Shown here in pieces: positions 5,775 to 54,703 of a DNA stretch of 64,000 nucleotides. Origin of the DNA: Granulibacter bethesdensis (GTDB lineage: Bacteria > Pseudomonadota > Alphaproteobacteria > Acetobacterales > Acetobacteraceae); assembly GCF_001889545.1 (NCBI RefSeq), contig NZ_CP018194.1, positions 2,630,001-2,694,000 on the forward strand, given 5' to 3'. The number at the start of each line of letters is the position of its first letter. Position 1 is the first letter of the stretch. The notes under the pieces were generated by a model. The model saw nothing but the letters and a program-made list of their open reading frames with translations, was not told where the DNA came from and made no database searches. The translations under genes were made by a program, and so were the position numbers.

Positions 5775-7187
5775 TCAGCGCCCGGTCATGATCCGGTCAA
5801 CAAGCTGCTTGACGGTGGGGATGAAGCCGTTCGCATAAAACGGGTCAGTGCCGAACCGATAGGCATTGTGACCGCTGAACATCAGATTGTCCTCGATCAC
5901 GTCCGGGTCATTCTTGTGATGCCCGATCGTCTGCAAGGTCTTCTGAATGCAGAAACTGCGCGGATCAGCCTTGCGGCCATTGGTATGGTTCTCGGAACGC
6001 TGGCTCCAGTTGGAGAAACGACATTCCGTCAGGCACCCCATGCACGCGACCTGATCGGCCTGGATTGTGGCAGCCTGATCGGGGGTGACGAAAATCAGCG
6101 TGGAATCGGGTGTGCGCAGAGCCTCGATAAATCCGGCCTGTTCCCATTCCTGCACCCGCCGGAGATCGGCTGGGGTCAGATAGACGGGACGCTTGCGTGG
6201 CCCCACCCCATACACCGCCGTATGCTCGCCGATCGCCTCACCCGTGTAGGCAACCTGACGGTCGCTGCGGGCGCGGAGTTCCTGCATAAAACGATTGTTC
6301 ACGGCCGACGAGTAAAACCCGGTCGGACTGAACGGGTTCAGGAACACATCCCCCGGTTTCAGGGAAAGCAACTTGGCCTTCCATTGCTCCGATACCGGGC
6401 TTTCGCGGGTGAGCAGGGGACGGGTGCCAAACTGGAAGGCGACGGGGCCGAGTTCGGGATTATCGATCCAGTCTTCCCACTCCTCCAGCCACCAGACGCC
6501 ACCCGCCATGATGATGGGGGTCTCGCCAAGGCCGAACTGACGCATCTGGTTGCGCAGCGCCAGCACGCGGGGATAGGGATCTTCCGGCCGGTTCGGATCT
6601 TCCGTATTGGAAAGCCCGTTATGGCCGCCCGCAAGCCAGGGATCTTCATACACCACGCCGCCCAGCAGACTGGCGGCCTTGTGGTAGGCGCGCTTCCACA
6701 GCGCATTGAAGGCGCGCGCGGAGGAAACGATCGGGTAATAATGAATGCCGAAATGGGTAGCGATCTCGGACAGGCGATACGGCATGCCGGCACCGCAGGT
6801 CAGGCCATGCACCAGACCTTTCGCGCCTTCCAGAATGCCTGTGATCACCCGCTCCGCCCCGCCCATCTCCCACAGGATATTGGCGTGGATGCGGCCCCGG
6901 CCGTTGGATTCCTCATGCGCCTGCCGGGCCTGCTCAATCCCGCCGCGAATGGCGTAATCAACCAGTTCGTCATGCCGTTCCCGACGGGTACGGCCCCGGT
7001 AGATCTGTTCGATCAGCCGGCCACTGGAATCATGGCTGTCAGCGTTCACCGCGCTGAAGGTTCCCACCCCACCGGCAGACGCCCAGCAGCCGGAAGAACG
7101 TCCGTTGGAAACAGCAATGCCCTTGCCGCCTTCCACCAGCGGCAGAACGTCAACACCGCCCATACGGATCGCGTTAATGGCCTTCAT
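5775..7187 (-). CDS. Nitronate-monooxygenase / 2-nitropropane-dioxygenase-type flavin oxidoreductase
   Basis: A 470-residue FMN-dependent TIM-barrel protein of the NAD(P)H-dependent flavin oxidoreductase / nitronate monooxygenase superfamily. The early GGKGIAVSNG segment and the Gly-rich SAGGVGTFS, GLTCGAGMP and IIMAGG segments match that fold. It is about 100 residues longer than typical nitronate monooxygenases. The extension (residues about 375-470) carries a cysteine cluster CMGCLTEC plus a later Cys, which resembles an Fe-S or zinc site. The start is the ATG at 7187, with GAGAG upstream, rather than the adjacent GTG. Function beyond a flavin oxidoreductase is not established; the Cys-rich C-terminus argues against a plain nitronate monooxygenase. 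Confidence 0.85.
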   Translation of the reverse strand: MKAINAIRMGGVDVLPLVEGGKGIAVSNGRSSGCWASAGGVGTFSAVNADSHDSSGRLIEQIYRGRTRRERHDELVDYAIRGGIEQARQAHEESNGRGRIHANILWEMGGAERVITGILEGAKGLVHGLTCGAGMPYRLSEIATHFGIHYYPIVSSARAFNALWKRAYHKAASLLGGVVYEDPWLAGGHNGLSNTEDPNRPEDPYPRVLALRNQMRQFGLGETPIIMAGGVWWLEEWEDWIDNPELGPVAFQFGTRPLLTRESPVSEQWKAKLLSLKPGDVFLNPFSPTGFYSSAVNNRFMQELRARSDRQVAYTGEAIGEHTAVYGVGPRKRPVYLTPADLRRVQEWEQAGFIEALRTPDSTLIFVTPDQAATIQADQVACMGCLTECRFSNWSQRSENHTNGRKADPRSFCIQKTLQTIGHHKNDPDVIEDNLMFSGHNAYRFGTDPFYANGFIPTVKQLVDRIMTGR

Positions 7188-42045: not shown

Positions 42046-43088
42046 CTGATGCACTCCCTGAAAAAGTGATCACGCGTGCAGGTAATCAGCATCGAACGCT
42101 TGTGCGGAAAATCGAATTCATATTCCAGCGTGTAACCGGATTCCTCACAGAGCCGCAGCATATTGCTATGAGTGGCACTCGGCTCTCCCACGACTTTTCG
42201 TGTTCTGCAATCATCAAGAAACAGGCAATGCGTAATCGTCCGGAACCATGCCAGCGTACGGTCACGGCCAAGATGGCGTTTTTCGCCTACCAGTACATGC
42301 CAGCCACGATCATAATCATCGGCCTCATAATGCGGGCCGAGCCTGTCTTCCTTGCCCCAATAGATCTCGAAATAGGTCGATGGCTCCCCATCCAGTTCGC
42401 CGATCACGGAGAATGCATGCGGATCAGCCTCCATACGATGCAGATAGGCTTCATGCTTTTCAATCGGGCCGGCTTCATCCCAGAATTTCGCCACACGCGG
42501 CTGGTTCTGCCACATATGGAACAGTTCAAGATCACGGCCGATATCCAGTGCACGCAAGGTAAATTCATGACCGGTTATGGCATCACGCCGTCGATAGAAC
42601 ACACCTTTCGGGGCTGGCGGACGCAACGGATGATCACGCCCATCTGCGAGTGTACGACGCAGAAGCGGTTGGCGATGTGCAGGCGGACCGGCCTGCCAGA
42701 AATCCCTTTGCTGACGATGCCCCTGCCGGTACAGCAGAGCGGTATTATTCCGTATCTCATGAATCGGAAACGATGCATCGGCAGGATCGGAAACTAATTC
42801 CAGAGGAACTGAAAAACAATCAGCCCCTTCTGAAAAAGCATAATCAGCCAGTACATAGATCAGAAAATTTCTGTCCTTTTCCGGCACAGACCAACACAGG
42901 CCAATGGCTTTGGCAAATTCCTCCTCGAAATGAAGGCGCGTATGGGCGGCGACCGACCCATTGAGCAGTATGCTCAGTTCGCCTTCTTTCATGATCATGA
43001 CAGAGCGGCCATGTGCATCCCGGAATGTCCAGACCGGAGTCATATCCTTAACCGATCGCTCAACCGGATGCTCCAGAACACCACTCAT
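42042..43088 (-). CDS. Siderophore N-acetyltransferase (RhbD/IucB type)
   Basis: A 348-residue protein acylating the hydroxylamine from acyl-CoA during siderophore assembly. The C-terminal about 190 residues are a GNAT domain of the siderophore-specific subgroup, with the family segments FHMWQNQPRVAKFWDE and YFEIYWGKEDRLG. The N-terminal about 150 residues are a further domain typical of RhbD/IucB-like proteins. The ATG at 43088 overlaps the upstream synthetase stop as ATGA; the longer open frame upstream has no ribosome site. Confidence 0.9.
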   Translation of the reverse strand: MSGVLEHPVERSVKDMTPVWTFRDAHGRSVMIMKEGELSILLNGSVAAHTRLHFEEEFAKAIGLCWSVPEKDRNFLIYVLADYAFSEGADCFSVPLELVSDPADASFPIHEIRNNTALLYRQGHRQQRDFWQAGPPAHRQPLLRRTLADGRDHPLRPPAPKGVFYRRRDAITGHEFTLRALDIGRDLELFHMWQNQPRVAKFWDEAGPIEKHEAYLHRMEADPHAFSVIGELDGEPSTYFEIYWGKEDRLGPHYEADDYDRGWHVLVGEKRHLGRDRTLAWFRTITHCLFLDDCRTRKVVGEPSATHSNMLRLCEESGYTLEYEFDFPHKRSMLITCTRDHFFRECIR

Positions 43089-44977
43089 GGCCGCACCAGC
43101 GGATTGGGAACAGATACATAACTGGCAAGGGGGCTGGCAGTATCCGCGTTTTCGTTGACATCCCTCAGATACGTCATCACATTGCCTTTCATCCAGATCG
43201 ACGGACAATCCAGCAGATAGCGAATGACGGACTGATCACGCAGCCCATCATCACTCATGGATTGAAGCCTTTGCCGTAAAATACCCAGAAGGGTCTGTTC
43301 CTGTGCAACTTTGTCGAGCACAAGTGTATCAAGAACACCGAACACGGAATTACCGATCAGATAATACCCGATCAGCTGCGGCCCCAGTGCGGCATCAATG
43401 ATATTGTCTGTCCATCGTCCCAGCTCCGGCACGTGGGTCCGCAGAGTCTCGATCATATCAGTTGCAATCGCCGTACCCTGACAATCACGGAACCAGGCCT
43501 GTTCCGGCCAGCCATTCTGCAAACCAAGCACGACATTCTGCTGATGGGCACTCATCATCACACCATGACGGGCATGGAGATACAGCACAGGCTCCATCAG
43601 AATGCCGAGGAAACGACGGAACCATTCCTCAGCAACATCAGACTGGCTGCGTTTATCGCGTGTAGCAATCATATGGATGATATGGCCCAGTCTGCTGGGA
43701 GCGCTGCTGTCGAACAGATCATCCTGACAAAGCGTCGCAAGCATCGCGGCATGACGACCACCCGCATATACTCCATTGGCTTTATCAGAAAATGGATTCT
43801 CCCTGAAGACAACAGAGCTTTCGATCAAAATCTTCCCATCGGGCCCTTTCAGCGACAAATGAGCAGGTTCTTCGATCACTGAAAAACCCTGATAGCGGGC
43901 AAAGACATCCTGCCCGACCGGGCCACGCAGCAGACGCGCCAGATGCAGGCCACGATCAAGCTCGCGCGGCAGAATCGTGCGGATTGAATTGGTAATCCGC
44001 ATCGACAGCGAGAATTTCATCATCAGTGGAGACTGCGCACTCCATAAACTGCGCAGGGATGCAGTCGCGCGGAATTGCGGTCCCATGACGCCCAGATCGC
44101 GCAACCGGTCCTCCATGCGCAGACTGGCAAGTTCGGGCAGGCACAGAAGATGACCGGCCTGCCAGGGATGAACCGGCAACAAGATCCAGCCTTCCGGAAC
44201 GGCACGCAGTATTTCCTGACCAGCATCGGTCGATGCAACCATATCTTTCAGCAGGGACTGTATATCGGCCACATGAACACTGTCGCCAATCATATGATCC
44301 GGATGGACTGCGAACCAGCGTAACGCGAAGCTGTTGCCATGATCAGGTCCGTACGCCGCATCCTCACTTTCGGATAAGCCTTCACGGAATTTGGGCGCGG
44401 GATGAAACGGATGGCCCAGGATCAGACCCTGTTCCGCCGTGATAAAATCAGGCACATTCTCTGTCTGATCATGTGTTCTATATTGATGACTGAGCAAGGC
44501 GGCTGAGACACGTTCGGCGCTGTCCATGACACGTTTACGGAAAGTCATCCTGGTCGGCAGGGATGCCGCCTGAGCAAAAGCCGTGTGATCCAGAAGAAGA
44601 TCCAGCAGCAAACGCATATCGACCGATCGCGTGGTACCATGACGCCGCAGCAGTGGAGACCCCGCAAATCTGAACCGCCCGGTTTCAGTGGAGGCGGCAA
44701 GCGGCAGCAGCAACTCCCCTTCCTGCAACAACAGGGGAACTGAAACCGCACCGGCCGGACAATGCACATATGCCCCACATCGTGCTGCAGCTTCCTGCGG
44801 ATCGAGCTTTTTCCAGCCACGCCATTCGCGCAGTAAACCGTTCAGCAATGTCGTCGCCGCCATTCCGGCCTCAAAGGGACGACGTTCAATGCATGCTGAC
44901 GTATCGCGGGTATCCATGGCTTCCAGCACAGGCGTTTCCCTTTCTGTTGCATATCGTGCCGCTTTGCGGAGAATCAC
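43085..44977 (-). CDS. NIS siderophore synthetase, IucA/IucC family (RhbC-like)
   Basis: A 630-residue synthetase, the first gene of the siderophore operon. Typical segments are GHPFHPAPKFREG (about residue 205) and LLPVHPWQAGH (about residue 285), with the FhuF-like C-terminal part. The start is uncertain: the longest frame begins with a GTG at 44977 behind a weak AAG, while an ATG about 20 codons later (MDTRDTS) lacks a good ribosome site. A Fur-like box at 44991-45009 lies immediately upstream in the shared divergent promoter with the exporter. Confidence 0.92.
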   Translation of the reverse strand: MILRKAARYATERETPVLEAMDTRDTSACIERRPFEAGMAATTLLNGLLREWRGWKKLDPQEAAARCGAYVHCPAGAVSVPLLLQEGELLLPLAASTETGRFRFAGSPLLRRHGTTRSVDMRLLLDLLLDHTAFAQAASLPTRMTFRKRVMDSAERVSAALLSHQYRTHDQTENVPDFITAEQGLILGHPFHPAPKFREGLSESEDAAYGPDHGNSFALRWFAVHPDHMIGDSVHVADIQSLLKDMVASTDAGQEILRAVPEGWILLPVHPWQAGHLLCLPELASLRMEDRLRDLGVMGPQFRATASLRSLWSAQSPLMMKFSLSMRITNSIRTILPRELDRGLHLARLLRGPVGQDVFARYQGFSVIEEPAHLSLKGPDGKILIESSVVFRENPFSDKANGVYAGGRHAAMLATLCQDDLFDSSAPSRLGHIIHMIATRDKRSQSDVAEEWFRRFLGILMEPVLYLHARHGVMMSAHQQNVVLGLQNGWPEQAWFRDCQGTAIATDMIETLRTHVPELGRWTDNIIDAALGPQLIGYYLIGNSVFGVLDTLVLDKVAQEQTLLGILRQRLQSMSDDGLRDQSVIRYLLDCPSIWMKGNVMTYLRDVNENADTASPLASYVSVPNPLVRP

Positions 44978-44990
44978 CTTGCGGCATATT

Positions 44991-45009
44991 GCAATTGATA
45001 TTCATTCCT
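44991..45009. promoter_or_regulatory. Fur-box-like site in the divergent siderophore promoter
   Basis: GCAATTGATATTCATTCCT matches about 12 of 19 positions of the classical Fur consensus, centred between the siderophore operon (minus) and the MFS gene (plus), which are 46 bases apart. Iron repression of both genes is the expected result. In alphaproteobacteria RirA or Fur/Mur could be the actual regulator. Confidence 0.5.
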
Positions 45010-45023
45010 AATTTAATGCCAAA

Positions 45024-46307
45024 ATGCAACCCCGAAACACCTCCCTCTCCGCGGGCATCAGCCCTGCTGATCCAGCATCGCCCGATGCGATCACTTTGTC
45101 GTGCTCAGATCGTCTCGGCTTTGCTTCGCTTGTCTGCTGTGTAGGGCTGACGCAATCATCATTGATTGCATTTCTGCCGATTTTATCGAGCAAAACAGGA
45201 TTATCTGTTCTGTCACTTGGTATTGTTACCAGCTGTGGAATGCTGGCCATGCTTGGTGGTGCGCCTCTGGCAGGATGGTTGAGCGATCGGGCCGGTCGAC
45301 GCCAGACTTTGATGGCCTGCCTTGCCATTTTCTGCGTAGCCCAGCTTTTTCTGGCGGGCATTGTATCAGCGGCGATGAACGGGACTTTAACCCCTTCACT
45401 CTGTCTCGGACTGTTGATGATATGCCGTCTGTTACATGGCATCGCGACAGGTGGCCTGCTTCCAGTGGCACAGGCCTGGGTCGCTGATCTGACCGGAATT
45501 CAAGGTCGTATGGCGGGGCTTGCCGCCATCAGCGCCGGGTTCAGTGCCGGTCGGCTGGCAGGTCCGCTGCTGGTCTCGGCCACTTTACCGCTGGGGGCCA
45601 CGATGCCGCTCTGGATCATGGCGCTGCTGCCCCTGCCACTCGGCAGCATCCTGTTGCGCCGCCCGCCCCCGGAAAGCGGTCATAGGAACATCAGGCCCCG
45701 ATCAGGGACTGCATGCTGGCGCGATCCGGCGATTCGGCGGTTGCTGATATTGGCCGCCATCGTCAACATTGCTTTTGGCACCTTGCATTTCGTGCTTGGC
45801 CCCTTGTTCCAGCACAGGCTGGGCTGGACCGCACAGTTGGCCGGAATCAGGCTGGGCTGGATCACCGCCCTGATGGCAGCCCTGATGCTGGCAAACCAGA
45901 TGAGCGTCATTCCCCGTCTGACCGCATGGCCCCGGCACACTCTGGCGGTCGGCATAGCCGTGATCTGGCTATCCGCACTCTGTCTGACCTGCGGACAGAG
46001 CGTGTGGAGCCTCGGGGCCGGTGTCTGCCTGCTCGGGCAAGGGCTGGCCTTAGCGGGTCCGGCCTGCGCGGCCCTGGTCAGCATTGCCGCCGGAGGAAGA
46101 CAGGGGGCTGCCTCCGGGCTGTTATCCTCCGTTCTGACGCTGGGGTATGCTGCGGGAGCCACGCTGGGCGGTTTTCTGTTCACCCTGGGCAATGCATGGC
46201 CCGCTGCGACCGCCCTGGTGATCCTGCCGCTGATCCTGCCGTTTTTCCCGCTCCGGGAATCATGGACAAAGCCGTCCGATAATCGGCAGATAGCAGGTGA
46301 TGCGTAA
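45024..46307 (+). CDS. MFS transporter, probable siderophore exporter
   Basis: A 427-residue major-facilitator protein with 12 predicted helices. The loop between helices 2 and 3 has the family motif GWLSDRAGRRQTLM (about residue 88). The N-terminal about 25 residues are hydrophilic. It is divergent from the siderophore biosynthesis operon and shares its Fur-like promoter, so export of the product is the likely job; import of the ferric form, as for RhtX, is the alternative. It overlaps the next gene by 8 bases. Confidence 0.87.
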   Translation: MQPRNTSLSAGISPADPASPDAITLSCSDRLGFASLVCCVGLTQSSLIAFLPILSSKTGLSVLSLGIVTSCGMLAMLGGAPLAGWLSDRAGRRQTLMACLAIFCVAQLFLAGIVSAAMNGTLTPSLCLGLLMICRLLHGIATGGLLPVAQAWVADLTGIQGRMAGLAAISAGFSAGRLAGPLLVSATLPLGATMPLWIMALLPLPLGSILLRRPPPESGHRNIRPRSGTACWRDPAIRRLLILAAIVNIAFGTLHFVLGPLFQHRLGWTAQLAGIRLGWITALMAALMLANQMSVIPRLTAWPRHTLAVGIAVIWLSALCLTCGQSVWSLGAGVCLLGQGLALAGPACAALVSIAAGGRQGAASGLLSSVLTLGYAAGATLGGFLFTLGNAWPAATALVILPLILPFFPLRESWTKPSDNRQIAGDA

Positions 46308-47058
46308 AGACGAAGACATAGCGGCATGGTGCGAGGCACGTATGGCCTCTCCTGCCGATTTTTCTCCGGCTGATGGCGTGGACGTCTCCCTGCTGACACG
46401 GCGGGAGACACTGGCCCCCGGTATAGAGCGATTCGCCAAAACCCTGCCTGCAGGCGCCGATCCACGCGCCATCGGGTCACTCTGGAGCAAGGCCTACACG
46501 CGGGCCGTGCTACCATCGCTGTTTATTCTGGCCATTCGGGACGGGCGCAACGCGCTTGATCCCGCACAGGCCGTGCCGCCCGGACTGGTTCTGCTCAAGG
46601 ATCGCCCGGATCAACTGGCACTGGATGCAGCCCTCCCGCCACGCCAAACGCCTGAGCAGATCATGACCATCGCGCTGGGGCAGCATATGCAAAGCGTGTT
46701 CACCGCGTTGCGGGACTGCACTGGCCTTTCCCCGCGCGTGGCATGGTCCAATGCGGGCAACATGGCTGATTTCCTGTTCCGCCGCATGGCCGAAACGCCA
46801 TCATTGGCCGATCAGGCCGCGCAGTATGAGGCCCTGATCATGGAGCCACGCCAGACCCCGTGGTTTCCACGCCAGAACTGGCTGCATGCACCATTGCGAA
46901 CCGTCTCTGTCATACTGGACGGAGAAGCGGTTCCGCTGCGTCAGCGGCGGATCTGCTGCCTGCGGGACAGGGTGCCGGGCATGACGCTTTGCTCCACCTG
47001 CCCCAGATTATCGGAGGCAGAGCGCCGCGCGCTGGTCGGTCAACGGCACCGCCACTGA
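46300..47058 (+). CDS. FhuF-like ferric-siderophore reductase
   Basis: A 252-residue cytoplasmic protein of the FhuF type, which releases iron by reducing the Fe(III)-siderophore. The C-terminal [2Fe-2S] motif CC-X10-C-X2-C is at Cys219, 220, 231 and 234. The upstream part has the family's FhuF fold (segments SLWSKAYTRAVLP and GLSPRVAWSNAGN). The ATG at 46300 is preferred over the GTG one codon earlier. The gene overlaps the MFS gene, so exporter and reductase are coexpressed. Confidence 0.9.
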   Translation: MRKDEDIAAWCEARMASPADFSPADGVDVSLLTRRETLAPGIERFAKTLPAGADPRAIGSLWSKAYTRAVLPSLFILAIRDGRNALDPAQAVPPGLVLLKDRPDQLALDAALPPRQTPEQIMTIALGQHMQSVFTALRDCTGLSPRVAWSNAGNMADFLFRRMAETPSLADQAAQYEALIMEPRQTPWFPRQNWLHAPLRTVSVILDGEAVPLRQRRICCLRDRVPGMTLCSTCPRLSEAERRALVGQRHRH

Positions 47059-47476: not shown

Positions 47477-49600
47477 ATGGCCATTCTGCCCATCCTGCTC
47501 TGCGCCTTTGCCTGCCTGGGACTGGCGGGCGAAAGGCTGATGGCCGCACCGCCGCGGCAGGATCGCCGGATCCTGCCGGCACGGCTGAAGCGGCTGATGC
47601 TGTGCCACATCGTGCTGTGTGCCGTGGGGGGCATGGCCTGCCTGTCTGTTCTGCTCGGGGGCGCGTCATGGAATGGAACAGCATGGGTTGGCGGCGCCCT
47701 GCCCGCGCTGGTGTCGGATGCCGTTGCCCTGCGTCTGGGGCTGGACGGATTTTCCGCCTTTACAGCGCTGGCCGGATTCTGTGCGCTCGGGCTGGCCAGC
47801 GCCACCGGGCTGGATCGACCCGGAGGAGGAGCCACGCGGCTGGCCTTTGTAACAGCCGCGTTGATGCTGACCGTCATGGCAGCCGATGTCATGACACTGG
47901 CAGGAGGCATCGCCTTGCTTTTCGTCGCCCTGTGGGCCTGCCCTACGCATGACGGCCCTACGCATGACGGCCCTACGCATGACGGGGCGTCCCCCGGCAC
48001 GGAAACGAACACGTTCAGCCCGGCCCATACCCCGCCCCATTCGGGGAATGCGGCCGCCATTGTAGGGATTCCGCTGCTGATCATCTCTACGGTCATGCTG
48101 ATGCAGCACGTCTCTCCCGCAGGCAGGGGGCCGGTACAGGGCGTCGAGTCAGCCAGACCGCTGGTCTGGATTGCCCTGTTACTGCTGACCATCGTCGTTC
48201 TGACGACGATGGCCGCCCTGCGTGCCCCCTCCTCCGAGCTATCCCGGATCGTGACAGAGGAGCACACGTCCGGGCCGGAACCGGCGGCCCCGGACCTTGC
48301 CACCCTTACCCCTGCTTTGCCGGTACAGCGCAGCCCGGCCCCGGCCCTTGCCACGCCGGCGCAGATCGTCCGGCCTGCTTTGCAGGTGATTGTGCCGGTT
48401 TATCTGCTCGGACGGCTGGGACTCGATTTCCTGCGTAAGGCGGGGGGACCGGGAGAAAGCACTCCACTGATGCTGGCCGGAGCCATTCTGGCCCTGGCCG
48501 GTGGAATCAGCACCTTGCGGGGACGCAGCATTGGCCGCTGCGTGAATGGAATGGCGGACAGCCAGACCGGTCTTGCGATTCTGGGCTGCGGGCTGGCCGT
48601 GGCCGCCATGGCGGTTGATCTGCCCGATCTTGCCAGCCTTGCCCTGGCTTCCGTCCTGATCATCGTCCTGTCTGCCGCCCTGCTGATGCCAGTGTTGGGG
48701 ACCGGAACCACACTGATCGAGGAAGGGGCCGGCACCACCATGCTGGACCGGCTTGGCGGCATCATCATCGGGATGCCACGCATCGCCCTGCTGACCGGCG
48801 CAGCCTGCCTGGCCGGCGCAATGCTGCCGCCTTCCCCGCTTTATGCCGGGCGTTGGATGCTGGTTCAGGCCCTGATCGGCGGGCAGAGAATTCAGGACGC
48901 CGGTCTGGATGCCTTGCTGACGCTCGGGCTGGTCGCTACGGCACTGGCCTCGGGATTGGGAATAGCAGCGGTGCTGCGCCTGATCTGCATCGCCATTCTC
49001 GGCCGCCCCCGTGCGCCACGGGCCGCCGCCAGCACGGAGCCGCGCCGTCCCGCCGGGCTACGGGCCATGCAGGCAGGGCTTGCGGCCTGTATCGTGTCAG
49101 GGCTGATCCCCGGCCCTGTCCTGCACCTCCTGCACGGGGCGCTGGCAGTGCTGTGCGGTCATACCATGGATGATCGGACTGGCTGGATCGGGATCAGCGC
49201 GCAGGTCGACAGCATGCTGAGCTACACCCCGTTGTGGATCGCGCTGGCGCTGATCTGCGGCACCGCCCTGCTGCGGCACTTCCTGCACGGGCGGCGCAGC
49301 ACGACCCGGAATGCCGCGCCATGGAATGATGGCGATGCACCGGCACCACCCTGGCTACCCTTCGGCGATCCGGCCACCCAGCCCGATCCTGATTCGGTGG
49401 CCGATACTTTCCTGGCCCCGCTGCCGCCCCTGAAACCCACCCATCCGGCCCTGTCCGGCCTGCAGTCGCTGCTGCGGATGATCCTGACAGCCAGGCTGCC
49501 GGGTCGGGCAGAACGTTTCATCCCGGCCGGGGCCTCTGTCGGGCTGCTGGCAGTGCTCTGCCTGCTGCTGGCCATGGCCGCTCTGGAGGCACGGCCATGA
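47477..49600 (+). CDS. hyfB: Hydrogenase-4/complex-I-like antiporter subunit, HyfB type (divergent)
   Basis: A 707-residue membrane protein with about 14 hydrophobic helices, positioned as the HyfB/NuoL-like subunit. The short LDGFSAFTALAG segment (about residue 90) matches the family. The canonical PLHxWLP-A-H proton-channel segment is not recognisable: the equivalent part is a Pro/Ala-rich linker. A 15-base unit is tandemly repeated three times at 47941-47985 and encodes PTHDG three times in a loop. The ATG at 47477 has AAAGGG 9 bases upstream. It is the first of six ATGA-coupled genes. Confidence 0.7.
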   Translation: MAILPILLCAFACLGLAGERLMAAPPRQDRRILPARLKRLMLCHIVLCAVGGMACLSVLLGGASWNGTAWVGGALPALVSDAVALRLGLDGFSAFTALAGFCALGLASATGLDRPGGGATRLAFVTAALMLTVMAADVMTLAGGIALLFVALWACPTHDGPTHDGPTHDGASPGTETNTFSPAHTPPHSGNAAAIVGIPLLIISTVMLMQHVSPAGRGPVQGVESARPLVWIALLLLTIVVLTTMAALRAPSSELSRIVTEEHTSGPEPAAPDLATLTPALPVQRSPAPALATPAQIVRPALQVIVPVYLLGRLGLDFLRKAGGPGESTPLMLAGAILALAGGISTLRGRSIGRCVNGMADSQTGLAILGCGLAVAAMAVDLPDLASLALASVLIIVLSAALLMPVLGTGTTLIEEGAGTTMLDRLGGIIIGMPRIALLTGAACLAGAMLPPSPLYAGRWMLVQALIGGQRIQDAGLDALLTLGLVATALASGLGIAAVLRLICIAILGRPRAPRAAASTEPRRPAGLRAMQAGLAACIVSGLIPGPVLHLLHGALAVLCGHTMDDRTGWIGISAQVDSMLSYTPLWIALALICGTALLRHFLHGRRSTTRNAAPWNDGDAPAPPWLPFGDPATQPDPDSVADTFLAPLPPLKPTHPALSGLQSLLRMILTARLPGRAERFIPAGASVGLLAVLCLLLAMAALEARP
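47941..47985 (+). repeat. Three perfect 15-bp tandem repeats inside hyfB
   Basis: Three identical copies of CCCTACGCATGACGG in a row encode Pro-Thr-His-Asp-Gly three times in a loop of HyfB. Copy number is likely to vary between strains, because slippage would stay in frame. Confidence 0.95.
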
Positions 49601-50520
49601 CGGGAAGCTTCTTTTCCCCCGGACTGTATATCGTGCTGCACCTCATCCTGCTGGCCCTGCTGGCACCGCTGGTGACCGGGATCATCACCAGCATCCGCAT
49701 CAGGGCCAGTGGAGGCGGCTGGCTGTCTCCCCTCGCGCCTTACACATGGCTCCGGGCGACGATAAAGCACGGCATCGTCATTCCCGCGCAGGCAACCAGC
49801 CTGTTCTTGCTCCTGCCATGCGTCTCCCTGATTGCAACCGCGCTGGCCGCCTTTCTGACGCCTTCCTTTCTGATCGATGGCCCTGTGACCGGAGGGGGTG
49901 ACGCCATCCTCATCCTGGGCCTGCTGTCACTGTCCCTGATCGCCAGAGTGATGGGGAGCATGGATACGGGGCTGAGCCAGAACAGCATTGGCACGCTGCG
50001 ACAGGGCGGGGAGGCTGGCTGGATGGAGCTGATCGTGACCCTCAGCCTCTCCGCCCTGACGATGCTGGGCGGAAACCCGGTCCTGACAGCCCTGCATACG
50101 ACCGGGATGATGCCCGGTGGCGCCTTGCTGATCTCACTGCTGCTGCCCGGCCTGTGCCTTGCCGCGCTGGCCGGCGCAGGGATGTTGGGCACGCCATCGG
50201 ATGACATGGCGCATCTCTCCGGCCCGCTGCTGGCCATGGCTTCTTATGAACAGTCCCTGCGTCTGCTGACCTGGATCAGCATCATGGCGGTCGTGTTTCT
50301 GCCTTTTGGCATGATCTCCCTTCAGGCCGGCCTCCTGCACTGGGGCTTCGCCATTCTGACATGGGGGGGCAAAATCCTGTTTCTCGCCGTCCTGCTGGGT
50401 CTGGCGCAGGCGCGGCTGCCTTTTCCGGCGGCCGGACGGGGGGCTGCGTTCCTTCTGCTGGGCAGCGTCTTTACCCTTCTGGCCGTCCTGTGCCTGCTGG
50501 CGGGACAATATCCGGCATGA
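49597..50520 (+). CDS. hyfC: HyfC/NuoH-like membrane subunit
   Basis: A 307-residue protein with about eight transmembrane helices, the NuoH/HyfC-type subunit that carries the quinone or cation channel in the family. The DTG segment (SMDTGLSQ, about residue 128) matches the family's LDTGS. The basic loop normally reading GPSxLQPYxDLLKLxxK is altered to GGGWLSPLAPYTWLRATIKHG, losing the conserved Pro-Ser and several Lys. The start overlaps the hyfB stop as ATGA. Confidence 0.75.
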   Translation: MTGSFFSPGLYIVLHLILLALLAPLVTGIITSIRIRASGGGWLSPLAPYTWLRATIKHGIVIPAQATSLFLLLPCVSLIATALAAFLTPSFLIDGPVTGGGDAILILGLLSLSLIARVMGSMDTGLSQNSIGTLRQGGEAGWMELIVTLSLSALTMLGGNPVLTALHTTGMMPGGALLISLLLPGLCLAALAGAGMLGTPSDDMAHLSGPLLAMASYEQSLRLLTWISIMAVVFLPFGMISLQAGLLHWGFAILTWGGKILFLAVLLGLAQARLPFPAAGRGAAFLLLGSVFTLLAVLCLLAGQYPA

Positions 50521-51218
50521 CCATCACACCAGGCACCGTTTTCCTCCCGCTTCTGGCGATGATTCTGTTCTCAGCCATGATCGCCGCGCTCTGTACCAGG
50601 CTTCGGGCCGCGCGACAGGTCGTGCTGGCCCAGACCATGCTGGTGACAATCGTGGCCGCGATGAATGCCTTGTTAACGGCTTTCTGTCTGCCTGATCGTC
50701 CGGCCTGGCCCATGGCCGGAGTTGCTCTCACGGTGCTTCTGGCAGGATTGTTTCTTGGGCAAAGATGGCGGAGCAGGTCGCTCGCCCTGTCATCAGAACC
50801 GGATCTCAAAACCGGTCAGCCAACCCTGCCCGATACGGTCTGGATGATAGGAACCGGCCTGATTATCGCCCTGGTCGTCTCCGGCGGCATCGGATTAACG
50901 CCCATTGTCTCTCACGCTCCGGTATCCACCGCGACGCTATCCACATCACTGCCCGATCCCGCAACGGTGATCGCCATCAGCCTGACGATGGGGATGCTGT
51001 CTCTGCTCTGGCTGGCCCGTGACAGCAGGGTCGATTTCCTCGGTCCGGCACTGCTTCAGGCCGGGCTGGCAATCGCACTGGTCATGAGTGCACTGGATAT
51101 TCACCGGCTGATGCCGCTCTACAGTCTGCTGGGCCTGCTGCCCGCCCTGCTGACGGAGGAAGCCTTCCGCCTCCTGCGCCAGCGGGAAGCACGGGCTGAG
51201 ACGGAGGCTGCACCATGA
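50517..51218 (+). CDS. hyfE: HyfE-like membrane subunit
   Basis: A 233-residue protein with about six or seven hydrophobic helices, at the HyfE/NuoK-like position. The C-terminal helix pair (VDFLGPALLQAGLAIALVM and LMPLYSLLGLLPALL) fits the HyfE layout. It overlaps the hyfC stop as ATGA and is coupled in the same way to hyfF. The sequence is divergent, so the assignment leans on gene order. Confidence 0.7.
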   Translation: MTITPGTVFLPLLAMILFSAMIAALCTRLRAARQVVLAQTMLVTIVAAMNALLTAFCLPDRPAWPMAGVALTVLLAGLFLGQRWRSRSLALSSEPDLKTGQPTLPDTVWMIGTGLIIALVVSGGIGLTPIVSHAPVSTATLSTSLPDPATVIAISLTMGMLSLLWLARDSRVDFLGPALLQAGLAIALVMSALDIHRLMPLYSLLGLLPALLTEEAFRLLRQREARAETEAAP

Positions 51219-52618
51219 CGGATCATGCCCCCGATTGGCTTTCCCTTCTGACCGATCCGGCATGGTGGCCATGGCTGCTGCCACTGCCGTCGCTGTTGAC
51301 CGCCGCACTGAGCATGGCGCTGTCCGGCTGGCAGGGAGCAGCCTGGGCCGGTCTGGTATCAGCCTGTCTGACGCTGGGCTTGGCAGGGGGATTGGCAGCG
51401 GGATTGGCAGGAGGGCTGGCAGGGGCTTCATTGACCGCCATGTCCGCTGATCCGGCCGCGGGAGGAGCATTGCTGACGGCCCTGATCAGCGTGATGGCCG
51501 CCACAGCCTGGCTTGGCTGGTGCGCGGATGAGGTCGCTGCCATGCGTATCTCCCTCACCCGGCTGAAAATCCTGGCGGTCGGGCAGCAAACCGCGTTGGC
51601 GGGAATTCTGCTGGCCTTTGCCCCCTCTCCCTGGGCAGGCTGGGCCGGGATCAGCATCGCCATGGCCGTGCTGACTGTTCTGGCTGCCTTTTCCCCTTCC
51701 GCGGCCATGTCCCGGCGGGGAGAGACGCTGACAGTCGGGATGATGGCCTGTCTGCTGTCCCTGTTCGGCCTGATCATCCTTCAGGCGTCCTCCTCCGGTC
51801 TCCTTTTCTCCGGACAGGGGCACGGTCTGGTCCGCACCATGCCAGGCCTGATCTGCCTCGCCGCCGGGCTGGCCGTCCCCGCCGGCCTCGCCCCGGTGCA
51901 TCAATGGCTGCGGGAGACCGTCAGCGCCCTGCCACCGCCAGGACAAGCGCTGATCACCGGCGGGCTGCCTGCTGCCGCCCTGCTGTTCATGCTGAAACAG
52001 TCCGGCGCGGGCATGCCGCCTTTTATCTATGGCACGCTGGGGATTCTCTCCGTACTGGCCGGTGCGGTGCTGGCGATCCGCTGCGGCTTCACCCTTTCAT
52101 GGCGCTGGAGCGGACCACTCTCCTGTCTCGGCGGCGGCTGTCTGGCGGGTGGGAGTCAGGGTCTGCTCTATCCGGCGCTCGGGCTGCTGGCCCTGAGCGC
52201 CTGTCTGCTGCTCGACGGCCGAGCACGGCAGGTGGGAGCTGTCTCCGACCATACACCCTCCCCGCAGGGACATGGCGGGTTGGATGCATTGCGACTCGCG
52301 GCCCGTTTCAGTCTGGCGGGGCTGCCGGGGGGCACTCTGGCGGGACTGATCACCCTGCTGTCCGGGACTGCCCTGACGCATCCTCTTCTGGCCCTGCTGC
52401 TGGCGGCCGGGCTTGGAAGCAATGGCTATGCGCTGCTCCGTCAGGCGCCGATGCTGCGACCCGCCCGAAGGCCGCCGACACCCTCCCGCGCCTGTCTGCC
52501 GCTTGATATGACCGCAACCCTGCCCGCCCTGATTCTGCTGCTGACCTGCATCCTGCTGGGGCTTGGCAATGGGCCATCCCGCTGGTTCGCCTCTGCTGCC
52601 GCTGCGGTGACACAATGA
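51215..52618 (+). CDS. hyfF: HyfF/NuoN-like antiporter subunit (divergent)
   Basis: A 467-residue membrane protein with about 14 helices. The antiporter-like segment LAPVHQWLRETVSALPPPGQALITGG (about residues 228-253) clearly corresponds to the PLHxWLPxAHxxAPxxxSA motif of the family. The Lys that normally follows in the next helix (SGVxxK) is replaced (GGLPAAA), and the second His of the motif is missing. A Gly/Leu/Ala-rich stretch near residues 55-70 is low-complexity. Coupled to hyfE and hyfG by ATGA overlaps. Confidence 0.78.
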   Translation: MTDHAPDWLSLLTDPAWWPWLLPLPSLLTAALSMALSGWQGAAWAGLVSACLTLGLAGGLAAGLAGGLAGASLTAMSADPAAGGALLTALISVMAATAWLGWCADEVAAMRISLTRLKILAVGQQTALAGILLAFAPSPWAGWAGISIAMAVLTVLAAFSPSAAMSRRGETLTVGMMACLLSLFGLIILQASSSGLLFSGQGHGLVRTMPGLICLAAGLAVPAGLAPVHQWLRETVSALPPPGQALITGGLPAAALLFMLKQSGAGMPPFIYGTLGILSVLAGAVLAIRCGFTLSWRWSGPLSCLGGGCLAGGSQGLLYPALGLLALSACLLLDGRARQVGAVSDHTPSPQGHGGLDALRLAARFSLAGLPGGTLAGLITLLSGTALTHPLLALLLAAGLGSNGYALLRQAPMLRPARRPPTPSRACLPLDMTATLPALILLLTCILLGLGNGPSRWFASAAAAVTQ

Positions 52619-54171
52619 GTAGTCTGGACTCCCTGTTGCAGGGCGCCGACACCGAGGCCACCCACCATGATGCCGCCACCCATACCGTGGCACGGAGGCT
52701 ACTGACCGCCCCGCTCTGGCAGGAACTTGCAGCCAGCCCCCAGGCCGGGTTGCTGGCGCTCTGGGCCGATCAGGCGCGCTGCCATGCCTTGTATCGCACC
52801 GCGCATGGCATCCTGCCGGTGGCAACCCCGATCGAAGGGGGGCGCTTCCCCGCGCTTTCCCCCTTCCGTCCCGCCGCGGCATGGCAGGAGCGGGCCATCC
52901 GCGATTTGTGGGGCTATGAGGCCGAGCACGGCGTGGATAGCCGCCCATGGCTCGATCACGGCAGATGGCCGATGAGTGCCCCGCTTTCCGCCCGGCCCGG
53001 ACCGCCTTTGCCACCGCCCGAGCAGGCGGAGTGGCGGATGGCCTCGCCCTTTGCCTCCTCCTTTGTATCGCCCCGGCCCGATATCACGCTGCACGAGCGC
53101 AGCATTGGGCCTGTGCATCCATTGATGCGGGAGCCGGCACAGTTGCGCCTGCATCTGCATGGCACCATCATCCGGCAGGCGGAATGGCGGCTTGGCTATA
53201 CTCATCGCGGTATCCCGTGGCTGATGCGCGGGAAACCCCTGCGGGACGCGATCAGGATCGCAGCCCGGATCACCGGCGATGCAGCGCTCGCCCACGGTCT
53301 GGCCTTCGCCCGTGCCGCCGAGGCCGCCTTGCGGCTGGAGCCGCCTCCCCGCGCCCTGCTGCTGCGTGGCCTGATGAATGAGCTGGAACGCTGTACCGTC
53401 CATCTGTATGTCCTCGCCACCACGGCCAGCGCCGCCGGCGCCGACACCTATGCCGCGAAACTGTCCACATGGCGGGAGCGTCTGTTGCGCGCCATTCAGG
53501 ATGCGTTTGGCAACCGCATGATGATCGACCAGCTTATTCCTGGCGGGGTGCTGACCGATCTTCTGGACGGCACCGCACTGGAAACAGTCTTGCAGGCCCT
53601 CGGCCGGACCATGCCGGAGCTGATCGAACGCTATGAAACGGCTGCCAGCCTGAGTGGGCATGGATTCTGCGCCCGTCTCCGTGGCTGTGCTGTCCTGTCC
53701 GGATCGGATGCTGTTTCCCTCGCCGTACCTGGCCCCGCCGGACGCGCATCGGGCCGGCCCCATGATCTGCGCACCACCTGGCAACAGGCTCCGCATGGCA
53801 CGGTGCACAGGCTGGTGCTGGCAAATGGCGACGCGGATGCCAGAATGCGGGTCCGTCTGGCCGAAATTCAGGAGAGCCTGCGGCTGGCACTGCTGTTTCT
53901 GGATTCCCTGCCGGTCGGACCGATTGCCAATCCCATGCCGATCGGCACAGGCAATGCCAGCGGAGAAGGTTATGGCGGGGTGGAATCGGCCCGTGGCGCA
54001 TGCTGGCACTGGCTGCGCATCGAGGGCGGAATGGTGGTCTCCGCCCATGCGGCCGATCCATCATGGCGGCTGATTCCCGCTATTGAGGCCGCTCTGCCCG
54101 GCACGGACATTGATCTGCTGGGAGTGGCGCTGGCCTCTTTCGCGCTCTCGCCCGCCGGGGCTGATCTGTGA
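52615..54171 (+). CDS. hyfG: Hydrogenase-large-subunit-like protein (HyfG type) without NiFe ligands
   Basis: A 518-residue soluble subunit with a NuoC-like N-terminal part (ERAIRDLWGYEAEH, about residue 95) and a NuoD/hydrogenase-large-subunit-like part. In HycE-type proteins the NiFe ligands lie in RxCGxC; here the segment reads RITGDAALAHG, with Thr220 and Ala223 in the cysteine positions. The C-terminal DPCxxC motif is also absent: the protein ends SFALSPAGADL. So no NiFe site can form. This agrees with the Ehr (energy-converting-hydrogenase-related) idea. It is coupled to hyfF and followed 7 bases later by hyfI. Confidence 0.85.
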   Translation: MSSLDSLLQGADTEATHHDAATHTVARRLLTAPLWQELAASPQAGLLALWADQARCHALYRTAHGILPVATPIEGGRFPALSPFRPAAAWQERAIRDLWGYEAEHGVDSRPWLDHGRWPMSAPLSARPGPPLPPPEQAEWRMASPFASSFVSPRPDITLHERSIGPVHPLMREPAQLRLHLHGTIIRQAEWRLGYTHRGIPWLMRGKPLRDAIRIAARITGDAALAHGLAFARAAEAALRLEPPPRALLLRGLMNELERCTVHLYVLATTASAAGADTYAAKLSTWRERLLRAIQDAFGNRMMIDQLIPGGVLTDLLDGTALETVLQALGRTMPELIERYETAASLSGHGFCARLRGCAVLSGSDAVSLAVPGPAGRASGRPHDLRTTWQQAPHGTVHRLVLANGDADARMRVRLAEIQESLRLALLFLDSLPVGPIANPMPIGTGNASGEGYGGVESARGACWHWLRIEGGMVVSAHAADPSWRLIPAIEAALPGTDIDLLGVALASFALSPAGADL

Positions 54172-54178
54172 GACACTC

Positions 54179-54703
54179 ATGAGATGGTTTCCGTCCCTTC
54201 AGGCTTCCCATCCCGGGCTGTGGGATGATGCCGCCAGCCAGCCGCATGCGGAAACCGTCGCCGCACTGATCGCCCGGCGCAGAAGCAGCGCACGGCCAAG
54301 GCTGGGACAGGCCCTGTCCATCCTGCATGCAGAGAGCGGCGGAGGCAGCGCCTGCCTGCTTGAACTGGAGGCATTGCGCGCCGCGCCCGGTCTGCTGGCC
54401 CGTCATGGATTACGGTTTGTCGCCTCGCCGCTGCATGCCGATATCCTGCTGATCACCGGCTATGGCTGCCACAACCTGACGAGCGCCATCCATCAGGCAT
54501 GGGAGGCGATGCCAGGCCCGCGATGGGCCATCGCCGTCGGTGACGGAGCCGCAGAGGGTAATCCGCTGCATGGAAGCTATGCCAGCACCGGCACTATGGA
54601 AGACATCCCTCTTGATCTGGTCATTCCAGGCAGTCCCCCTGCAGCGGACACAATCCTGTCCGGCCTGCGCGCCCTGGTCGCAGCCAATGCTGATCCGGCC
54701 TAG
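54179..54703 (+). CDS. hyfI: NuoB/HyfI-like small subunit with eroded N2-cluster ligands
   Basis: A 174-residue protein of the NuoB/HycG family, which normally binds the [4Fe-4S] N2 cluster. The alignment is clear around SPLHADILLITG and LVIPGSPP. Three of the four ligand positions are changed: CNGC reads G56-S-A-C59, the GAC position reads GDGA (Gly123), and PGCPP reads PGSPP (Ser152). Only Cys59 remains. Together with HyfG this implies a complex without its usual redox centres. The ATG at 54179 follows the hyfG stop by 7 bases. Confidence 0.85.
   Translation: MRWFPSLQASHPGLWDDAASQPHAETVAALIARRRSSARPRLGQALSILHAESGGGSACLLELEALRAAPGLLARHGLRFVASPLHADILLITGYGCHNLTSAIHQAWEAMPGPRWAIAVGDGAAEGNPLHGSYASTGTMEDIPLDLVIPGSPPAADTILSGLRALVAANADPA

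Follow-up and report, generated by a model that had tools for sequence, protein, structure and literature searches.

In the 64,000-nucleotide stretch of Granulibacter bethesdensis DNA analysed here (contig NZ_CP018194.1, positions 2,630,001 to 2,694,000; hereafter the window), six consecutive genes on the + strand at 47477-54703, in the order HyfB, C, E, F, G, I, encode what is probably a redox-dead and uncoupled form derived from the six-subunit energy-converting-hydrogenase-related (Ehr) complex HyfBCEFGI. The six genes are under purifying selection, and the genus of the window appears from its sequences to retain the module with neither the ligand set of the N2 iron-sulfur cluster nor the proton machinery. 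That the product is selected, redox-dead and uncoupled, all taken jointly, is rather likely.

Organization of the operon and homology of its subunits

Four junctions of the operon (49597, 50517, 51215 and 52615) are ATGA start/stop overlaps and the ATG of HyfI (54179) lies 7 bases 3' of the HyfG stop; both the coordinates and the close coupling described in a first-pass annotation of this DNA were correct. The same annotation had named all six genes as Hyf homologues, which is clear by profile for four of them. Profile hidden Markov models built from core relatives gave 164 bits for HyfB (antiporter-type, 707 amino acids, 47477-49600), 92 bits for HyfC (NuoH/HycD-like, 307 amino acids, 49597-50520), 421 bits for HyfG (518 amino acids, 52615-54171) and 151 bits for HyfI (174 amino acids, 54179-54703). 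HyfF (antiporter-type, 467 amino acids, 51215-52618, carrying the motif AGLAPVHQWL) matched its core profile weakly, at 10.4 bits versus 5.6 for the best of 200 shuffles, and the window HyfB scored 10.6 bits with that profile. The hydrophobic protein at the HyfE place (233 amino acids, 50517-51218) gave no match above shuffles with the HyfE core profile and is assigned by position and size alone. A Pfam scan placed HyfG (Complex1_49kDa, 1.4e-24) and HyfI (Oxidored_q6, 4.3e-14) above cut-off and none of the membrane subunits; Proton_antipo_M reached 19.8 bits on HyfF, below its cut-off of 21.5, and the best NCBIfam match of HyfB was hydrogenase 4 subunit B (E 2.5e-31), far below the model cut-off.

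Purifying selection on the six genes

In three species of the genus every one of the six frames is open, with lengths differing by at most 12 codons, and the six genes contain no internal stop despite 510 and 516 substitutions between the window and the other two species, about 2% of random single changes giving nonsense. The ratio of nonsynonymous to synonymous substitution rates (dN/dS) between the window and these two species was 0.12-0.14 for HyfG, 0.22-0.24 for HyfB, 0.22-0.28 for HyfF, 0.25-0.39 for HyfE, 0.38 for HyfC and 0.37-0.39 for HyfI, and it was 0.09-0.34 across the six genes between the other two species. Over all comparisons HyfG was the lowest of the six (0.09-0.14) and HyfI ranged from 0.29 to 0.39; four flanking genes gave 0.02-0.23. 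The nonsynonymous proportion (pN) was below the synonymous one (pS) in 12/12 tests, the largest p being 0.0041 (HyfI) and the rest at most 4e-4. With frames open in three species, pN below pS and dN/dS of 0.09-0.39, we rejected a pseudogene; the value near 1 that the first-pass annotation had named as fatal to its proposal is excluded.

HyfG lacks the NiFe site and keeps part of a proton relay

Alignment of the window HyfG to Escherichia coli HycE and Pyrococcus MbhL showed that the RxCGxC site reads R218-I-T220-G-D-A223, and a C-terminal DPCxxC was not found in the alignment to HycE, MbhL and relatives, as had been noticed from the letters. We surveyed the site in 80 named loci, 72 of which gave 74 HyfG matches in total, and the 72 matches that span it read R-x-S-G-D-S-T or near variants; both N-terminal NiFe cysteines together occur in 0/72, and one locus (L127) has a single one, indicating that NiFe loss is family-wide, an ordinary Ehr feature and not peculiar to the window. 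At the DPC site the two ligand columns of relatives are Ser and Gly, and the idea that relatives with SFNC retain one NiFe cysteine was dropped because that cysteine aligns to the proline of DPC. HypD was not found in the window genome nor in 19 others, with matches in 4/14 control genomes (other Hyp genes lay outside this search). A NiFe hydrogenase was rejected on the absence of RxCGxC and DPCxxC and on the HypD result. One family member (L031) has a HycE-like subunit with RVCGIC and DPCYSC, apparently a real group 4 hydrogenase.

The HycE residues E193, H284, R395, E437 and R478, described in passages of PMC9474812 as loop and proton-pathway residues, are retained in the window HyfG as E173, H263, R377, E417 and R460. 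H263, R377 and E417 are invariant across 30 HyfG sequences; E173 and R460 are not among the invariant residues. The canopy aspartate of HycE (D529) is not retained: relatives have Asn at its position and the window has Ala. We called a column conserved when at least 95% of the core relatives (sets of 67-89 sequences) share its residue; the core sets omit rows under score thresholds and eroded loci, so that conserved columns describe the canonical type. By this measure the window HyfG retains 79/117 columns.

Loss of N2 ligands in HyfI is particular to the genus

The alignments confirmed that Cys59 is the sole retained N2 ligand of four, with Gly56, Gly123 and Ser152 at the other positions, as the first-pass annotation had stated; the NuoB-type motif of two adjacent cysteines and two other ligands is absent. 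The same one-of-four state was found in 3/3 genomes of the genus, and among the Acetobacteraceae scored it is restricted to that genus. The window HyfI retains 40/58 conserved columns. Hidden N2 cysteines through misalignment were rejected on the alignments and on the cysteine content of HyfI, which is Cys59 and Cys97. Relatives that keep the N2 cysteines, which the first-pass annotation had listed as a refutation of its proposal, do exist, but they show that the loss in the window's genus is derived and not an alignment error. The original view of what sets this operon apart is thereby narrowed: NiFe loss is family-wide and arm loss is shared with other Acetobacteraceae, and N2 loss is special to the genus.

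Four N2 cysteines were present in 24/24 other relatives of the first HyfI alignment, which omits L031 (hydrogenase-like), L034 and L035 (NuoB) and loci in which no linked HyfI was found, and in HyfI of 79/80 named loci, the exception being L137. A sample of the class gave 28/30, with one HyfI cut by a contig end (L165) and one reading CCCA (L170, genome G086), and mostly weaker family members gave again 28/30, with one cut (L176) and one reading SCCC (L177, genome G003). At least two genomes are counted in more than one of these tallies (L021/L155 and L137/L209). In the class search the window HyfI scored 108.6 bits, level with NuoB, and 30 of the 32 matches above 200 bits were fetched; the family search matched 208 genomes, cysteines being scored in those of the first alignment and in 30 hand-picked, mostly weaker ones. 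The profile searches for the class sample and for the rhizobial family described below would miss badly eroded HyfI. Within this scope, three-ligand loss in an intact HyfI gene is rare among the sequences scored, and the N2 ligands are retained even by strongly diverged relatives. We also rejected the suspicion that G024, G010 and G003 lack a HyfI gene: in these genomes (loci L028, L032 and L024) HyfI lies elsewhere, apart from the HyfG operon, with 4, 4 and 3 cysteines, respectively.

Cys97 (codon 54467-54469), the only cysteine of HyfI besides Cys59 and one that the first-pass annotation had overlooked, is present in 3/3 genomes of the genus. Its column is Thr, Ala or Ser (mostly Thr) in 24/24 other aligned relatives; across the core set, which for this column and for the window's conserved columns includes L137, it is Cys in 4/88, and also in L075, with the normal four ligands there except where noted.

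Erosion of the membrane arm

Conserved columns retained by the window number 49/114 in HyfB, 34/80 in HyfC, 10/46 in HyfE and 29/94 in HyfF. The loss of channel residues reported for HyfF and HyfB was borne out at these conserved columns (Rhizobium numbering): E139>S, K228>P, H343>G and K347>L in HyfF, and E143>A, H344>I, H348>A, K352>M and E407>R in HyfB, the N-terminal half of which is too diverged for residue-by-residue alignment. HyfC is missing 14 residues of the coupling loop PVDNPATHLELTMVHEAMVLEYSG, and all 12 gapped conserved HyfC columns fall within this loop (202-218). Of the three roles that had been offered for the complex, scaffold, transporter or sensor, a proton transporter is disfavoured by the loss of the channel residues and of the loop in HyfC. 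Within HyfB, at 47942-47986, a 15-base in-frame repeat (PTHDG) occurs three times, with a single THDG in both sister species.

The same arm erosion, with four N2 cysteines kept, was found at other Acetobacteraceae loci (L049, L050, L061, L066, L068 and L071), and partial erosion with four N2 cysteines at L075 and L116. Eight further loci, which we call the acetic-acid-bacterium type, scored below 25 bits for HyfF in 8/8 and for HyfB in 6/8; L030, L028, L029, L027 and L023 have multi-helix open reading frames (ORFs) at the HyfF and HyfB places despite low scores. In the HyfG tree, a quick tree with long branches, the window's genus groups with L061, L066, L068, L071 and the eight acetic-acid-type loci (SH-aLRT 97). 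The eroded-arm label, borne by eight loci, needs at least three changes on the tree, and erosion therefore probably arose more than once. Upstream of the eroded operon in four of the seven acetic-acid-type loci examined (L028, L029, L030 and L032) lies an ORF that is aldo/keto-reductase-like, judged by its N-terminus.

A rhizobial clade without an intact N2 ligand set retains the proton machinery

The sole N2 exception among the named loci, L137, comes from a metagenome-assembled genome named Mesorhizobium. Two further genomes of its genus have the same state, the gene being present in 3/7 genomes there, and a search of 394 genomes of its family revealed HyfI without an intact ligand set in 5/21 (SSEN, SSEN, SSDN, CADD and DPAD), the remaining 16/21 reading CCCC. 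The loci concerned (L137, L212-L214, L233 and L234) have lost three or four N2 cysteines, and the five cysteine-poor genomes form one clade (FastTree on six subunits with ligand columns removed; support 1.0). No second Ehr-type HyfI was found in the L137 genome, just a NuoB-level match.

Comparison with conserved columns, for which L137 was omitted from the core set, showed that the three closest members keep 54/58 HyfI columns, the only losses being the four cysteines, together with HyfB 114/114, HyfC 80/80, HyfE 46/46, HyfF 94/94 and HyfG 115-116/117, at dN/dS of 0.008-0.16. The other two keep 114 HyfB, 80 HyfC, 45-46 HyfE, 94 HyfF and 114 and 116 HyfG columns and have each lost one additional HyfI column; L233 keeps Cys at the first ligand. 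Close relatives with four cysteines (L235 and L236) retain 58/58 HyfI columns. Because the residues that replace the cysteines differ between members, a fixed new metal site is unlikely in this clade. An Ehr-type complex with its full proton machinery thus appears to be kept without the N2 ligand set, and because nearly all else is conserved in a clade that lost three or four N2 cysteines, N2 would be dispensable in this kind of complex. A small helix-turn-helix gene is annotated immediately 5' of HyfB in rhizobial operons (6473-6769 in both L141 and L143), and an ORF judged by eye to be of this type lies 5' of HyfB at L137 (2065-2364); none was seen 5' of HyfB in the ORF list of the window.

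Possible functions of the complex

We propose that the subunits would still assemble, that HyfC and HyfI would hold HyfG at the inner membrane face, and that neither would electrons pass through the complex nor protons be driven through the arm. The selected function would most likely be structural or allosteric, or else the binding of a ligand in the former NiFe pocket, together with what survives of the proton relay; support of another respiratory complex is perhaps conceivable. HyfG is, beside HyfI, the best conserved part in both the window's genus and the rhizobial clade, and we infer a role centred on it, structural or ligand-binding. A specific structural or allosteric role, taken by itself, is doubtful.

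Several observations weigh against this proposal. HyfE and HyfF have diverged too far to prove that the arm still forms, 38/117 conserved HyfG columns are lost, the proton relay of HyfG is not whole because Ala stands at the position of the canopy aspartate, and no gene adjoining the operon points to a client complex. Constraint on HyfI, HyfC and HyfE is relaxed, as their dN/dS reaches 0.38-0.39. Given that 4/88 core rows and L075 also have Cys at this column, Cys97 may have arisen by chance, or it may be part of a rebuilt site; it adjoins the T93-G94 loop, and Cys59, Cys97 and Ser152 might hold a rebuilt cluster. In solved relatives the loop carrying Cys97 probably lies near the cluster.

A rebuilt cluster of this kind, with Cys59 and Cys97 among its ligands, or alternatively a quinone or flavin, would make the complex still a redox enzyme, in keeping with the descent of HyfG and HyfI from redox subunits and with the presence of Cys59 and the new Cys97 in all three species. 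We regard this as very improbable: HyfI, with two cysteines in all, lacks three of the four usual ligands, Cys97 need not be a ligand given its occurrence in the core relatives and L075, no ferredoxin, flavin or dehydrogenase subunit was seen among the operon genes, and the rhizobial clade is likewise without N2. A slowly decaying relic, having lost its use and heading towards pseudogenes with residual constraint from a recent past, would account for the retention of only 22-43% of conserved columns in the four membrane subunits, for the high dN/dS of HyfI, HyfC and HyfE and for the eroded arms and operon-unlinked HyfI of other family members, yet it is unlikely in view of six genes without an internal stop in three species under the substitution load given above and of a HyfG dN/dS as low as that of neighbouring genes. 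The complex could instead be a cofactor-free machine for ions or small molecules like DAB or Mrp, with proton movement coupled to a non-redox event in HyfG. The N2-less rhizobial clade with its nearly complete HyfB, HyfC, HyfE and HyfF, the partly kept relay of HyfG and the redox-free precedent of the complex-I-like DAB2, whose DabB2 lacks key ion-pair motifs (passages of PMC13144422), speak for it; but channel residues and HyfC loop are gone in the window's genus, so that, the rhizobial clade aside, arm coupling is unlikely there, and for the window we consider this explanation improbable.

Beyond the window, we put forward tentatively, as a possibility with somewhat more against it than for it, that Ehr BCEFGI need not be a redox machine and that HyfG may couple a reaction other than electron transfer, or a binding event, to proton movement in the arm; on the same tentative footing the Acetobacteraceae would be the opposite extreme, with a dispensable proton path and, in the window's genus, a metal-free HyfG-centred module.

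Relation to known systems

Ehr complexes are widespread and lack Ni and Fe ligands, and passages of PMC6349859 offer their function as a suspicion only, namely that they couple redox reactions with the translocation of charge. The window resembles them in having a large subunit without these ligands (T220/A223; no DPCxxC), and lacks the proximal [4Fe-4S] ligands in HyfI that nearly all scored relatives have (1/4 kept), the antiporter channel residues and the coupling loop of HyfC; the suggestion that this Ehr-type complex has taken a further step, the loss of iron-sulfur ligands and of channel residues, is therefore supported. Among Alphaproteobacteria, Ehr BCEFGI of Rhizobium johnstonii 3841 (pRL11) has the same six-gene order, no annotated HyfA/HyfH and a HyfG without NiFe ligands, but keeps channel residues, HyfC loop and four N2 cysteines, all of which the window lost except one cysteine. 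The absence of HyfA and HyfH from the window operon, which had been remarked on, holds and is not special, as three annotated operons (two of Rhizobium, one of Azospirillum) list none either. E. coli formate hydrogenlyase/hydrogenase-3 and -4 (HycCDEG, HyfBCGI) share homologous HyfB, C, G and I and several HycE relay residues with the window operon, which, unlike them, has no NiFe ligands, normal proximal ligands, ferredoxin subunits or formate dehydrogenase.

The deranged cytochrome bc1 of Acetobacteraceae, suggested in passages of PMC10715153 to be a complex I stabiliser, is likewise a respiratory complex of this bacterial family kept after metal-ligand loss, with a structural role proposed; it is unrelated to the window complex, and the single hydrogenase mention in that text concerns a type 1 hydrogenase. 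The DAB2 CO2-uptake complex resembles the window complex in having a complex-I-like membrane subunit and works redox-free, but consists of two subunits with a carbonic-anhydrase-like DabA, and passages of PMC13144422 make no mention of HyfG/HyfI homologues. Our literature search surfaced no published cofactor-free Ehr complex or cysteine-less HyfI/NuoB, with thin coverage of subscription journals that leaves absence unproven.

Two lineages have separately lost N2 ligands, and one of them has kept its proton machinery intact. This natural loss amounts to an evolutionary test of the redox-coupling view and speaks against a need for electron transfer via N2 in whatever selection maintains. Complexes with the cluster lost and the arm kept, with the arm eroded and the cluster kept, and with both lost form a comparative series from which to learn which complex-I-like part does what, and the window operon suggests that machines related to complex I and hydrogenases can be kept for non-electron work.

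Genomic surroundings

Elsewhere in the window genome are NuoB- and NuoD-like genes that would belong to a separate complex I. Upstream of the operon, at 43085-47058, siderophore-synthetase-like, MFS and FhuF-like genes, the first two named from their translations, form a likely siderophore locus, and a DUF3126 gene lies downstream.

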